From Actinoallomurus purpureus (GTDB taxonomy: Bacteria > Actinomycetota > Actinomycetes > Streptosporangiales > Streptosporangiaceae): a DNA stretch of 64,000 nt. Where the stretch lies: positions 186,001 to 250,000 of the forward strand of contig NZ_JAMXMY010000012.1 of assembly GCF_024055795.1 (NCBI RefSeq). The letters are read 5' to 3'. Below, piece by piece: positions 44,532-49,068 of this stretch. The notes beneath the pieces were generated by a model that searched no databases, was not told the DNA's origin, and worked only from the letters and a program-made list of their open reading frames with translations. The position numbers and the translations under genes are program-made. Position 1 is the stretch's first letter, and the number at the start of each line of letters is the position of its first letter.

Positions 44532-44672
44532 ATCACGTCAAAGGCCGAACAAGCCGGGATCCGCGTGGTGCTGGTCGATGAGCGCGGCACGTCCTCGACC
44601 TGCCCGGCCTGCGACCGGCGGGTCCCCAAACCCGCCGGCCTGAGAAACAGAATCCCGGACCCAAAGCTCTAG
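44532..44672 (+). pseudogene. TnpB (IS200/IS605 family) remnant
   Basis: An open stretch of 46 codons with no start codon translates to the C-terminal zinc-ribbon region of a TnpB/OrfB nuclease-transposase accessory protein. AGIRVVLVDERGTSSTCPAC is followed by DRRVPKPAGL, then unrelated sequence up to a TAG. The second Cys pair and the rest of the gene are missing. It is a fossil of an insertion element beside the amidase gene. Confidence 0.75.
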
Positions 44673-46381
44673 AACTCTTTCAGGTACCGGTCGTGCCAAG
44701 GCCGGTGGTTCTCCACCGCCTTGGCGGCGTTCAGTACCTCGACGTCCGCGAATCGGCGACCGACGATCTGCATCCCGACGGGCATCTTGCCGGCGAACCC
44801 AGCGGGCACGCTGGCCACCGGGTGGCCGGTGAAGTTGAACGGGTAGGTCATGCACCATCCGATGGTGCGCTCGGTCGGCACCCCGTTGACCGAGGCGGGG
44901 CCCAGCGTGTTGCCGTCGGCGGTGTTGCTCACCGACACGGTCGTCAGCGTGGGGCACACGATGTAGTCATACCCCTGGGCGAACACGGCCTCGACCGCGT
45001 CGTTGACGGCGATTTCCAGGAACTCCCCGTGTTTGTACTGCATCACGCTCGTTCTTGCGGCGCGCTCCAGCATCCCACGGAACTCCGGGTTCAGCTTGCT
45101 GACGTACGGCTCCCGCATCAGGTCCACCGGGATGCCATAGTGCAGGAACAAGTCTCGGGCGAAGCCGTACAGAGCGCTCTGCATCATCACCCAGAGGTCG
45201 CTGAGCATCTCCTGGGTGACCGGCCTCTGCGTCCCCGACAGCAGATCCGTGGTGGTCATCTTGTCGAACCCGAGGGGAATCTCGTCCACTCGGGCCCCCG
45301 CCGCAGCCAGCGCGGCCACCCCACCCCGGACGGCCTGCACCACCTGTCTTTCGACCGGGAAGATGTCCAGGTTCGGGCTGAACGCCACTCGCTTGCCCTT
45401 GAGTCCGCCACCGAGCTTGTGAAGGCTCCGCAGGTACGCCGGCCGATCCTGGATGCTGAACTTGTCCTGAGGGTGGAACCCGCCCATCACCTCCATGCTG
45501 AGGGCCGTGTCCTCGACCGTGCGGCAGATAGGGCCGGGGTGCAGCATGGGGTTGTACGGCAGGGGCGGGGCGTCCTGGGGGATGCGCCCGAAGGTTGCCT
45601 TGAACCCGACCGTGTTGGTGAACGCCGCCGGGATGCGAACGCTGCCTCCGGCGTCCGAGCCCTGGCTGAGCGCTGTCAGGAACCCTGCCACTGCGGCGGC
45701 GCTGCCTCCGCTGCTGCCGCCGGCATTCTTGGTGAGGTCGAACGGGGTGCTGGTGGGGCCGAAGGCGTAGTTGTCGGTGATGCCCTCGTGCCCGAACTCC
45801 GGGGTGTTGGTCTTGCCCATCGGATTGATCCCGGCGTCGAGCACCCGCTGGATGTAGATGGCGTTGGACGGGGGCCGGAAGCCCATCTCCTTGAACACCA
45901 CCGAGCCGAAGGTGTTGGGGGCGTCCTTCCAGAAGTCGAACAGGTCCTTGATGAGGTAGGGCAGCCCCTCCATCGGGCGGGCGGTGCCGTTCACGTACCG
46001 CCGCTCCGCGTCCCGTGCCCGAGCCAGTACCAGTTCCTCGGGGTGCCGGTAGACGATGGCGTTCACCTTGTGGTTCAGCCGGTCGATCCGCGCCAGGTAT
46101 GCCTGGGCCACCTCGACAGGGGAGATGCGTCTGGCCCGCATCCCACGGAGTAGGTCGCCGGCGGAGAGGAAGCACAACTCCTCGCCGCGCGGGGTGTCGT
46201 GGTGCTTGTCCCACCTGCCGATCGCATTGGTGATTTCCTCAGGCGACGGGCCGGAGGAGGCCGCGTCCGCTGTGGCTGCCGTGGCCTGGGCCGGGGAGCC
46301 GGCGAGGAGTACGGGCGCGGCCGCCGCTGCTGCTGCGACGGTCGCCCCTCCTGTTACTACCTGACGTCTGGACATTTTCAT
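44669..46381 (-). CDS. Secreted amidase of the amidase-signature family
   Basis: A 570-residue amide hydrolase with the Ser-cisSer-Lys triad. The Lys is in LPYLIKDLFD, the cis-Ser in GGSSGGSAAAVA and the nucleophile in SDAGGSVRIPAAF. The N-terminus MKMSRRQVVTGG followed by a long Ala-rich stretch to AQATA is a Tat signal, so the enzyme acts outside the membrane. Substrate is unknown (aryl amides, nitrile-derived amides or peptide amides are all possible). Third codon positions look less extreme in GC than in the central-metabolism genes, and it lies between IS remnants, suggesting horizontal arrival. An ATG at 46375 is an alternative start. Confidence 0.88.
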   Translation of the reverse strand: MKMSRRQVVTGGATVAAAAAAAPVLLAGSPAQATAATADAASSGPSPEEITNAIGRWDKHHDTPRGEELCFLSAGDLLRGMRARRISPVEVAQAYLARIDRLNHKVNAIVYRHPEELVLARARDAERRYVNGTARPMEGLPYLIKDLFDFWKDAPNTFGSVVFKEMGFRPPSNAIYIQRVLDAGINPMGKTNTPEFGHEGITDNYAFGPTSTPFDLTKNAGGSSGGSAAAVAGFLTALSQGSDAGGSVRIPAAFTNTVGFKATFGRIPQDAPPLPYNPMLHPGPICRTVEDTALSMEVMGGFHPQDKFSIQDRPAYLRSLHKLGGGLKGKRVAFSPNLDIFPVERQVVQAVRGGVAALAAAGARVDEIPLGFDKMTTTDLLSGTQRPVTQEMLSDLWVMMQSALYGFARDLFLHYGIPVDLMREPYVSKLNPEFRGMLERAARTSVMQYKHGEFLEIAVNDAVEAVFAQGYDYIVCPTLTTVSVSNTADGNTLGPASVNGVPTERTIGWCMTYPFNFTGHPVASVPAGFAGKMPVGMQIVGRRFADVEVLNAAKAVENHRPWHDRYLKEF

Positions 46382-46408: not shown

Positions 46409-46760
46409 TCATTCATGCCTCAGAAAGGTGCTGGAGCGGACCCAGAGGGTCAACCCCTCCACGCTGTTCACGTCACCTTCGAGCTGCCCTCTGCGCCGGC
46501 TCAGCCCATCGTCGATCTGATAGTCGCCGCGCGGGACCAGCATCGTCCGCCGCGATGGCCCGAACAACCTCGAAGAACTCCACCGGCGACGACTCATCGC
46601 CTCCGAAACGGCGGGGCTGCAACATACGGAAGACGCCCGCCTCGGTCAGTTCGCGAATCGTCTGCTCCAGCACACGCCGCTGCCGCTCGGCATTCTCCGC
46701 CCGCTGCCTGATGTTCGGGACGAGATCCCGCACCCGATCGAGCGTCTTGCGATTGGTCAT
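46409..46760 (-). pseudogene. Broken HsaA-like flavin-dependent monooxygenase
   Basis: The first 80 codons from ATG 46760 match the N-terminus of HsaA/acyl-CoA-dehydrogenase-type hydroxylases (LEQTIRELTEAGVFRMLQP, RRFGGDES, FFEVVRAIA). At about 46540 the match jumps to another frame, where MLVPRGDYQIDDG matches the middle of the same family. The gene thus has an internal deletion and frameshift, then decays. The C-terminal catalytic part is absent. Confidence 0.7.
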
Positions 46761-46858: not shown

Positions 46859-47165
46859 CTATTCACGGGCGACATCCAGGGGTTGCCGAGGGGGGTCGCG
46901 GAGCGTGTTGGCGGCACGCAGTCCGTTCTTACGGATGGTGGAGATACGGCCACGGATGGTCAGAAAGGTCCGGGCGCCGGCCAGGGTGTGGAACCCTCCG
47001 CTGACCTTGGTCTTGCTCTAGCTCATACGGATGCTTTGCTCCGCGCAATTGTTGGAGAACGCGACATCGAAGTCGGCGGTGAAATACAGGAACTCCTCCT
47101 GGCGATCCCGCAGCCGCAATGCCAGGTTCGCCAGATGGAGACCCTTCGATTTGCCAAGGTGGTGT
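46859..47165 (-). pseudogene. IS66-family transposase C-terminal remnant with in-frame stop
   Basis: Reading down from about 47165: LALRLRDRQEEFLYFTADF, then FSNNCAEQSIRMS, an in-frame TAG, then KVSGGFHTLAGARTFLTIRG and STIRKNGLRAANTLRD, ending at TAG 46859. This is the end of an IS66 transposase (the NNxAE-x2-IRM and SGxxRTLxGA motifs). The catalytic N-terminal half is lost. The stretch 47166-47353 upstream holds no gene that I can recognise, only an AT-rich dyad at 47300-47319. Confidence 0.8.
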
Positions 47166-47353: not shown

Positions 47354-47956
47354 CTACGGCCGGGTCACGACGGCGTCGATCAGGCCGTACACGATCGCAT
47401 CATCGGCGGTGAGGAGGCGGTTCTGCCGGGCGTCCTCGCGGATCTCGTCGACCTCACGGCCGGTCGTCTCGGCGAGGCGGATGTAGAACGCGTCGACCTG
47501 ACGGCGGTGTTCCTTCTCGCGGACCGCGACGTCCGTGGCATCGCCATGGAACGTCGCCCGGGGTTCGGTCAGCCACAATGTCGCATGGGGCATCATCTCC
47601 CGTCGCCGTCCGCCGACGAGCACCAGGAGCGGCGGGCCGCCCGTCTGGCCGGCGACGAGGACCTGCACCGGGCAGGCGAGAACGCCGATCGTGTCCGCGA
47701 CGGCGAACGCCGCCTCGATCTCCCCGTCCGGCGACCGCAGATGCAGCGTGACCGGGTCCTCCCCCGCCCCGTCGAGGTGACCGTTGACGAGGATGATCCG
47801 GTGGTCGAGCAGACGGTCCGAGAGCGGGTCCTTCTCACCCGGCCAGGGCCCCGCGCCCGGCCGGGGCCGCTCCCCCGGCGGCTCTCCGTGCCACGACGGC
47901 CGCGACGGCCGGGCCGGGTCGCCGGGAAACTCCGGTGGAAAAGACGGCATCGGCAT
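47354..47956 (-). CDS. ClpP-like protein lacking the catalytic residues
   Basis: A 200-residue protein with a Pro-rich N-terminal 45 residues and then a ClpP/crotonase-fold domain. DRLLDHRIILVNGHLDG and LHLRSPDGEIEAAFAVADTI follow ClpP strands and helices. The nucleophile region, normally GxAASMG, reads AGQTGGPP: Ser is replaced. The histidine region, normally MIHQP, reads LWLTEP: His is replaced by Thr. The tail EDARQNRLLTADDAIVYGLID keeps the rest of the fold. It cannot be a serine protease. Actinobacteria carry extra clpP paralogues, and this could be an inactive subunit or a scaffold. ATG near 47956 is the only start before the Pro-rich stretch. Confidence 0.75.
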   Translation of the reverse strand: MPMPSFPPEFPGDPARPSRPSWHGEPPGERPRPGAGPWPGEKDPLSDRLLDHRIILVNGHLDGAGEDPVTLHLRSPDGEIEAAFAVADTIGVLACPVQVLVAGQTGGPPLLVLVGGRRREMMPHATLWLTEPRATFHGDATDVAVREKEHRRQVDAFYIRLAETTGREVDEIREDARQNRLLTADDAIVYGLIDAVVTRP

Positions 47957-48000
47957 CGGGCTGCCCCCTCCGCAGACTCCCTACGACGATAGCCCGCCCG

Positions 48001-49068
48001 TCACCGTGCCGATCCCGCCCGGGCCGGCCGAACGTCCTCCGCACGGTCAGGACCGAGCGCGATCCGTGCTTCGACCACCCTGGGGTCATCGGACCGCCGG
48101 AACCGCCCGCCGAGGCCACCGAGCAGGGCCCGCATGCGGGAGTTCTCCGCGAGCATCGTGGCGCGGACCTCGGCCAGGCACTCCTCGTGCGCGACGGCGA
48201 GCAGGCGACGGGCCAGCGCCGCCCCGATGCCTCTGCCCTGCCAGCCGTCCTCCACCAGGAGCGCCAGTTCGCCGACGCCCGGGTCGAGCGTGTACATCAG
48301 GTGGGCGAGCGCGAGGATCGAACCGTCCGGCCCCTCGGCGGCCATGGTCAGTCCGTGTGCGCGGTCACAGAAGACCCGCAGGAGCCGCTCCGGGATGGTG
48401 TGCCGCGCGCTGAAGTAGCGGCGCCGGCGGCTCTCGAGCGAACAGCGGGCGTGCATGTCCCGTACCGCGTCGGCGTCGAGGAGCGTCAGCGGCCGCACGA
48501 TGACCTCGGTGCCGTCGCCGAGCACCATCCGCTGCCGGGTGGGGGCGGGATCATACGACGGGAGCAGCGAGCGGACCAGGGCGTTGGCGCGGGCGACCTC
48601 CGTCAGCGTGAACGGCAGCTCGTTCCGGTGCAGCAGGACGCCGCGCAGGTGCCCCGCGGAGACGGTGAGCGTCGTCGGGTCCGCGTGCTCGTCGAGCGCG
48701 GCCGGGCCGGCCACCCATTCGGCACTGTCGGCGCGCAGCAGCTCCGCGAGGATCTCCGGCAGGGCACGCGGGTTGGATCGCAGGCGTACGGCGAGGGAGA
48801 GCGCGCGGCTCGGCTCGTCGATCAGTTCGTGCGGGGTCGCCGGAACGACGCTGGTCCGGCGGCCCGCGGCGACCGCGACGGCGGCGGTGAGCGCCTCCGC
48901 GGTGATCCCGGTGGGCACGTCCACGACGAACTCGTCAACCACTCCGTCCGTGTCGACCTGGACGGACAGATCGAGGATGTTCGCCCCCTGCGCGGCCAGC
49001 GCGGCGGTCAGGACGGCGAGCCGGCCCGGCCGATCGTCGATCTCGGTACGTACGCGGAGCAGCGGCAT
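48001..49068 (-). CDS. ACT-domain/GNAT fusion, amino-acid-regulated protein acetyltransferase
   Basis: A 355-residue protein. Residues 1-75 are an ACT domain (LLRVRTEIDDRPGRLAVLTA, GANILDLSVQVDTDG) and are followed by a second, weaker ACT-like or linker region. The C-terminal 150 residues are a GNAT acetyltransferase: VIVRPLTLLDADAVRDMH starts it and VEDGWQGRGIGAALARRLL is the acetyl-CoA-binding loop. ACT-GNAT fusions known from Micromonospora and Streptomyces acetylate proteins, including acetyl-CoA synthetases, and are switched by Asn, Cys or other amino acids. The ATG at 49068 has GAAAGG 6 nt upstream; earlier starts have no ACT homology. It is solitary. Target unknown. Confidence 0.85.
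   Translation of the reverse strand: MPLLRVRTEIDDRPGRLAVLTAALAAQGANILDLSVQVDTDGVVDEFVVDVPTGITAEALTAAVAVAAGRRTSVVPATPHELIDEPSRALSLAVRLRSNPRALPEILAELLRADSAEWVAGPAALDEHADPTTLTVSAGHLRGVLLHRNELPFTLTEVARANALVRSLLPSYDPAPTRQRMVLGDGTEVIVRPLTLLDADAVRDMHARCSLESRRRRYFSARHTIPERLLRVFCDRAHGLTMAAEGPDGSILALAHLMYTLDPGVGELALLVEDGWQGRGIGAALARRLLAVAHEECLAEVRATMLAENSRMRALLGGLGGRFRRSDDPRVVEARIALGPDRAEDVRPARAGSAR

Follow-up and report, generated by a model that had tools for sequence, protein, structure and literature searches.

The window, the whole 64,000-nucleotide stretch of DNA that was analyzed, encodes at 47354..47956 on the minus strand a 200-residue ClpP-fold protein that is best explained as a vertically kept member of a catalytically dead ClpP-fold family in actinomycetes, whose members we refer to as pseudo-ClpPs. 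We give about an even chance to a history in which the pseudo-ClpP and a helix-turn-helix (HTH) protein form a self-repressed module in relatives, the window's genus has lost the HTH gene and an inverted repeat before it, and the window copy has further lost helix A of the fold. ClpP, a textbook example of a self-compartmentalized protease, is also a drug target, and the inactive forms known so far are chiefly ring subunits (ClpR). The clade-wide loss of catalytic site, oxyanion motif and docking pocket, together with the HTH gene and repeat found with many members, suggests that here the ClpP fold has been taken over for a regulatory role that does not involve proteolysis, and the repeat, TATCTC-N6-GAGATA, is a directly testable candidate binding site. 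In the titles and the starts of abstracts of the open-access literature we recognized no description of the family or of the HTH-pseudo-ClpP pair.

The Window Gene and Its Surroundings

The reading frame of the window gene is intact (200 codons, ATG start), and GGAGGGGG at 47964..47971 on the minus strand, 7 nt upstream of the ATG, is a probable ribosome-binding site. The gene was assigned from its open reading frame and translation, its same-genus orthologues and a match to the CLP_protease profile PF00574 (80.9 bits, E 1.3e-22). That match covers profile positions 46-181 of 182, i.e., to the C-terminal end of the domain, in agreement with the earlier note, which had described a ClpP-like protein with its C-terminal fold elements kept. 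Against the NCBIfam ClpP models the protein reached only about 80 bits, the cut-off of the best model being 249 bits. For the family profile 60 PDB chains are listed, all of which carry the name Clp protease proteolytic subunit or Clp peptidase, in some cases as subunit 1 or 2. AF2 structure predictions gave poor models, with a mean pLDDT of 42.7 for the window protein and 39.4 for L026. A PADLOC search with the window protein returned no match at E 0.01, and a search of plasmid DNA found nothing. The own genome has six PF00574 matches, comprising two adjacent pairs, one single gene and the window gene; the translations of the five others carry ordinary AAS or TAS and HQP motifs.

The N-terminal segment, MPMPSFPPEFPGDP... 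(residues 1-43; 47828..47956, minus strand), is Pro-rich and includes a PPEFP-like motif common to many relatives. Its unusual composition, remarked upon previously, is confirmed by a Pro content of ~33% in the 45 residues before the domain vs. 5% within it. It is also typical of the family, as 36 of the 40 pseudo-ClpP loci examined have 22-40% (0.22-0.40) Pro in the same 45 residues; lower values were found for L058 (0.13), L100 (0.09), L109 (0.11), and L106 (0.11, where just nine residues precede the domain).

An ACT-GNAT (acetyltransferase) gene at 48001..49068 lies 44 nt upstream of the window gene on the same (minus) strand. Such a gene adjoins the pseudo-ClpP upstream in three of eight same-genus loci and is not a constant partner, and a general operon of the two was therefore rejected. 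Downstream of the window gene are a broken IS66-family transposase remnant (46862..47146, minus strand), an acyl-CoA dehydrogenase fragment and an amidase gene, where relatives have the next conserved gene instead. The first piece of the remnant matched PF03050 just under the cut-off of 23.1 (21.7 bits, E 1.5e-4), and the second piece had no profile match. The acyl-CoA dehydrogenase fragment is N-terminal, 95 residues long (46473-46760, minus strand) and adjoins the amidase gene (44669-46381), which was not seen at this place in seven same-genus neighborhoods.

Loss of the Catalytic Site and Apparent Loss of the Docking Surface

The earlier note had reported that both the catalytic Ser and His are replaced, and this is borne out by an alignment, numbered after E. 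coli ClpP, in which 41 family members stand against 25 ClpP rows of catalytic type taken from the same genome set. The nucleophile region of the window protein, AGQTGGPP (residues 102-109; 47630..47653, minus strand), stands at the GxAASxG-like place of the catalytic-type rows, with Gly107 (47636-47638) for the catalytic Ser, and the His region, LWLTEP (residues 127-132; 47561..47578, minus strand), stands at their HQP/HEP place, with Thr130 for the catalytic His. Three features had been overlooked: the equivalent of Asp171 is Asn179 (47420..47422, minus strand), as judged from the alignment with the family and the catalytic-type rows; the SPGG oxyanion motif of active ClpPs reads SPDG; and 45 nt (15 residues) are deleted. 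The window protein thus has Gly, Thr and Asn in place of the Ser-His-Asp triad.

These losses extend to the family, for which conservation of the substitutions had been proposed as a check. The Ser97 column holds Gly in 41/41 pseudo-ClpPs and Ser in 23/25 catalytic-type rows, while the His122 column holds His in none of the 41 vs. all 25. The Asp171 column contains Asp in two and Gly in 33 of the 41, as compared to Asp in 23/25. Of the two Gly of SPGG, the first remains in 1/41 and the second in 8/41, with both present in 25/25 catalytic-type rows. Further differences lie outside the active site: Tyr or Phe occurs at positions 62 and 82 (Y62 and F82, which we take to be part of the docking pocket for Clp ATPases) in 0/41 and 1/41 pseudo-ClpPs vs. 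25/25 catalytic-type rows at both, and the Arg preceding Asp171, presumably the ring-ring sensor, is kept in 15/41 vs. 25/25. That nearly all docking-pocket aromatics have been lost in addition to the triad leads us to suspect that the family, besides being triad-dead, has left the ClpP surface that meets the ATPases. The alignment therefore supports catalytic death of the family more strongly than had been claimed.

Distribution, Phylogeny and Selection

The 41 pseudo-ClpPs are distributed patchily over four actinomycete families. In a maximum-likelihood tree (midpoint-rooted for drawing only, with several long branches flagged) they formed one clade with 100/100 support, apart from the 25 catalytic-type rows. 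All eight genomes examined from the window's genus, the own one included, have a pseudo-ClpP; in one of the eight the contig is the same as NZ_JAUEQY010000013.1 of Actinomadura sp. DC4, which NCBI taxonomy places in the Thermomonosporaceae. Among 297 genomes of the GTDB family, searched with a profile, 29 had a member at a score of at least 153 bits, eight of the window's genus and 21 from 14 other genera, and the next match (117 bits) has its Ser and His kept. A class-wide sample of 394 genomes contained, besides the own protein, 12 pseudo-ClpPs in three further families (one in f8, nine in f19 and two in f31), and in a phylum sample of 396 genomes there was no further pseudo-ClpP, the matches besides the own being two ordinary ClpPs. 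Pairwise dN/dS, estimated with our own Nei-Gojobori script, was 0.09-0.27 in eight of 14 pseudo-ClpP pairs and 0.38-0.48 in the other six, values that argue for purifying selection on the family.

No second ClpP gene was found beside the pseudo-ClpP in 29 neighborhoods, some of them only 3-7 kb long. In 10 of 11 further neighborhoods the pseudo-ClpP was likewise the single ClpP-fold gene, and none was called in L108. Tandem ClpP genes at the locus had been considered and were withdrawn, as they proved to be a single-linkage clustering artifact caused by two fused HTH-ClpP proteins.

Two side observations concern other loci. About 5 kb from the f19 pseudo-ClpP L110 (G488) is a gene that, from its sequence, we take to be trigger-factor-like; trigger factor is a common neighbor of clpP1P2. 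Separately, two further ClpP paralogs in the genus, L019 (G006) and L022 (G002), each lie beside an active-type clpP and carry Gly where the catalytic Ser would be (GQAAGTA and GQAAGPA, respectively), L019 also having Ala at the Asp position. On these features the two paralogs are better candidates than the window gene for an inactive subunit of mixed rings.

A Helix-Turn-Helix Partner Gene in Relatives

In 19 of the 21 family members from outside the genus, a small XRE HTH gene precedes the pseudo-ClpP gene on the same strand, and an XRE HTH gene also stands before the single f8 member. The two exceptions among the 21, L072 and L079, have no HTH gene beside the pseudo-ClpP, and neither do any of the nine f19 or the two f31 members. 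In two genomes, G120 and G155, the HTH and the pseudo-ClpP are fused in one frame (L082 and L083). For the 18 unfused pairs (17 of the own family and one of f8), we measured the distance from the HTH stop to the most upstream candidate ClpP start. In 11 of the 18 the candidate start overlaps or abuts the HTH gene (-8 to -1 nt): it lies at -4 nt in L063, L064, L066, L067, L081, and L100, at -8 nt, the limit of the scan, in L069, L073, L075, and L076, and at -1 nt in L080. It lies 19-35 nt past the stop in L068, L070, L074, and L078, 136 nt past it in L065, and 276 nt past it in L071, where a 237-residue gene sits between the two; for L077 the scan found no candidate start.

Searching with the HTH itself, we identified its subfamily in 21 of the 297 family genomes, in 19 of them with a full-length pseudo-ClpP beside it. 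At L129 (G251) the HTH gene is followed by a pseudo-ClpP that is missing ~49 profile positions within a single open frame, and in G024 the HTH gene lies at a contig end, with 308 nt of contig left after it. Of the 289 genomes outside the genus, 19 have both genes, two the pseudo-ClpP only and 266 neither, the remaining two being scored as HTH-only; the Fisher p-value of 1.7e-25 for this co-occurrence is illustrative only, since the genomes are related and it overstates their independence. The similarity of the HTH to an antitoxin family is weak, at 31.9 bits for TIGR03070 relative to a cut-off of 71.65.

An Inverted Repeat before the HTH Gene

At 22 of 22 HTH loci (19 of the family, L100, L123, and L129) the end of the inverted repeat TATCTC-N6-GAGATA lies at a constant distance, exactly 11 nt, upstream of an ATG in the HTH frame. 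The best site at each locus has 10-12 of the 12 repeat bases, as compared to the control windows of the same loci, of which one in 1007 reached 10 of 12 and none scored higher. At L063, L070, and L129 a GTG is also present 2 nt from the repeat. The right half of the repeat runs into a TAnnnT (TACCGT, TATCGT, and similar) close to the HTH ATG, which we infer to be the -10 element from which a leaderless HTH gene is transcribed, subject to repression by its own product.

With one mismatch or fewer the repeat was matched in 39/39 genomes searched, whether they had the HTH or not, so the loose form is unspecific, and specificity is confined to exact repeats or those at the fixed spacing. Among the matches listed, exact repeats lie at HTH promoters in G032, G009, G048, G179, G251, and G020, and in the eight genomes of the genus all 30 repeat places have a mismatch. 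G020 has three more exact repeats, all within long open frames of 330, 344, and 767 codons that are putatively coding, and among the matches listed a wider regulon for the repeat found no support. The repeat was not found upstream of the pseudo-ClpPs of the genus, where seven loci (all but L059, and with a start for L056 that was a few bases off) scored 7-8 of 12, within the control range. At the window locus, where the best site has 7 of 12, no inverted-repeat operator of the type II toxin-antitoxin kind was found. Upstream of L072 and L079 (G097 and G139), which have no HTH gene, the best site matches 9 of 12 bases and retains the right half GAGATACCGT; this half-site signal is weak, as 23 of the 1007 control windows also have 9 of 12.

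Apparent Partner Loss and a Deletion in the Window's Lineage

The HTH subfamily was absent from the window's genus, the best match there reaching 43.6 bits, and neither the window nor the genus has a small DNA-binding antitoxin gene adjacent to the pseudo-ClpP. In 8/8 genomes of the genus the pseudo-ClpP lies between glyA and pgl-opcA-zwf. Outside the genus, L065 and L071 are also near pgl, and L071 still has its HTH gene there. The shared location with the HTH kept in L071 argues for descent in place and for loss of the HTH gene in the genus.

Relative to seven same-genus relatives, the window copy has a 45-nt in-frame deletion of 15 residues at the junction 47776..47777 (minus strand). Imperfect CT[CG]GACG repeats flank the deletion, which fits an origin by slippage. 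By their position, the 15 residues are presumably helix A of the fold, and among the 66 sequences aligned a gap in these columns occurs in the window copy alone. The earlier note had counted a decaying gene, recognizable by broken copies in close relatives, as grounds against its reading. The seven relatives have intact genes, and the sign of decay unexpectedly points to the window copy itself. This copy may be decaying or losing function while its frame is intact, and that it is a relic on its way out is a serious possibility, though we hold it to be somewhat less than probable. Besides the unique loss of helix A, this reading is favored by the transposase remnant and gene fragment just downstream and by the six dN/dS values of 0.38-0.48, all from pairs that involve the window, L058, L062, or L059; four other same-genus pairs gave 0.19-0.27, about half as much. 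Against it, the frame, start, ribosome-binding site and remaining domain are intact, the deletion is in frame, and the third-position GC of the gene is 0.90. The rise in dN/dS is also not extreme, given that ten neighboring genes gave 0.01-0.41 over 52 comparisons (eight of 60 were without a value), with opcA as high as 0.38 and 0.41. It is also feasible that the 45-nt loss at 47776/47777 is an assembly error.

A Proposed Model and Its Alternatives

In the model that we propose for the relatives, the HTH protein would bind TATCTC-N6-GAGATA, which overlaps the TAnnnT -10-like element, and would thereby repress its own operon, whose first gene is apparently leaderless. The pseudo-ClpP would be the effector, its dose held down by this repression and its tether to the HTH protein being the Pro-rich arm or direct binding, and it would work through protein contact, not proteolysis. 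DNA binding by the HTH, repression, contact between HTH and pseudo-ClpP, and oligomerization are all predictions from sequence, and the repeat could instead belong to the promoter and be recognized by a different regulator. The lack of an HTH gene beside all nine f19 members, both f31 members and two of the 21 own-family members outside the genus also counts against the model. Within the window's genus, both the HTH gene and the repeat have apparently been lost, leaving the pseudo-ClpP alone by the glycolysis/pentose-phosphate cluster, and in the own genome helix A is gone too, so that the window protein is perhaps losing its function. As purifying selection maintains the pseudo-ClpP in genomes that lack the HTH, we expect the effector to be useful in its own right. 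We suggest, more tentatively than the history itself, that the ClpP fold came to serve a dedicated XRE repressor as its non-proteolytic partner or switch and that the window lineage represents the effector released from that repressor. Of the earlier proposal of a regulatory or scaffold subunit, the regulatory part is thus plausible by way of the XRE HTH gene and the repeat of the relatives, and the part that placed it in mixed, ClpR-like rings is not supported.

Two other readings of the pair appear unlikely, to a similar degree. The first is a toxin-antitoxin-like module, with the HTH acting both as autorepressor and as HigA-like antitoxin and with the dead ClpP as its toxin, e.g., as a subunit that poisons the Clp ring. 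The gene order, the short overlaps, the small HTH with its weak antitoxin-family similarity, the self-directed repeat, the patchy distribution, and the shortened copy in G251 would all be consistent with such a module. Opposed to this are the eight of eight genus genomes that keep the pseudo-ClpP with no subfamily HTH above 44 bits, the f19 and f31 members without an HTH beside it, the fusion of both parts in one protein in G120 and G155, and the location of the gene near pgl-opcA-zwf in three lineages, which is unlike a mobile module. The second reading, which we likewise regard as doubtful, takes the pair as a transcription factor that senses a ligand and acts on other promoters besides its own. 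An HTH joined to a dead enzyme domain is a known regulator design, which the pair resembles, the more so where it is fused in two genomes, but among the matches listed the exact repeats stand at HTH promoters, the three others of G020 being those within long open frames.

Least probable of all is that the dead protein joins rings of the ClpP1/P2 type and tunes them as a ClpR-like subunit, a less likely role in Clp rings for which the ClpP-fold match over nearly the full domain, the five further ClpP genes of the own genome, whose Ser and His motifs are intact and whose products would be available for mixed rings, and the inactive ClpR subunits described for cyanobacteria, plastids and apicoplasts (PMC7966870) can be cited, and against which count the missing neighboring clpP gene (none in the 29 neighborhoods nor in 10 of the 11 further ones), the near-absence of aromatics at Y62 and F82, the poorly kept sensor Arg, and the loss of helix A from the window copy.

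Comparison with Known Systems

By profile the window protein belongs to the same fold family as ClpP (peptidase family S14, PF00574), from which the pseudo-ClpPs differ in the absence of the triad, the oxyanion motif and the aromatic docking-pocket positions and in the addition of a Pro-rich N-terminal arm. Type II toxin-antitoxin operons with an XRE antitoxin have a HigBA-like architecture, and the loci of the relatives resemble these in having a small XRE gene first, a short overlap and an inverted repeat where the operon begins. They differ in that the second gene encodes a ClpP-fold protein whose toxicity is hypothetical, that solo copies are kept, and that the window locus has no HTH.

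ClpR is described as a ClpP homolog without the catalytic triad (PMC7966870), and this the window protein is also. A clpP partner gene beside it, common for ClpR though not defining, was not found in the neighborhoods examined; the partner in relatives is instead an XRE HTH gene, and the ring sensor Arg is poorly kept. Compared with the ClpRs of cyanobacteria, plastids and apicoplasts, membership of the pseudo-ClpP in a Clp complex is hypothetical. Streptomycetes are described as mostly encoding three or five ClpPs, and the Streptomyces transcriptional activators ClgR and PopR, which drive clpP1P2 and clpP3P4, as substrates of ClpP1P2 (PMC9765437). By description, the HTH protein would share with ClgR and PopR a role in transcription tied to ClpP genes; what distinguishes the pair found here is that a short HTH protein stands beside a dead ClpP, with a repeat that is directed at its own promoter.
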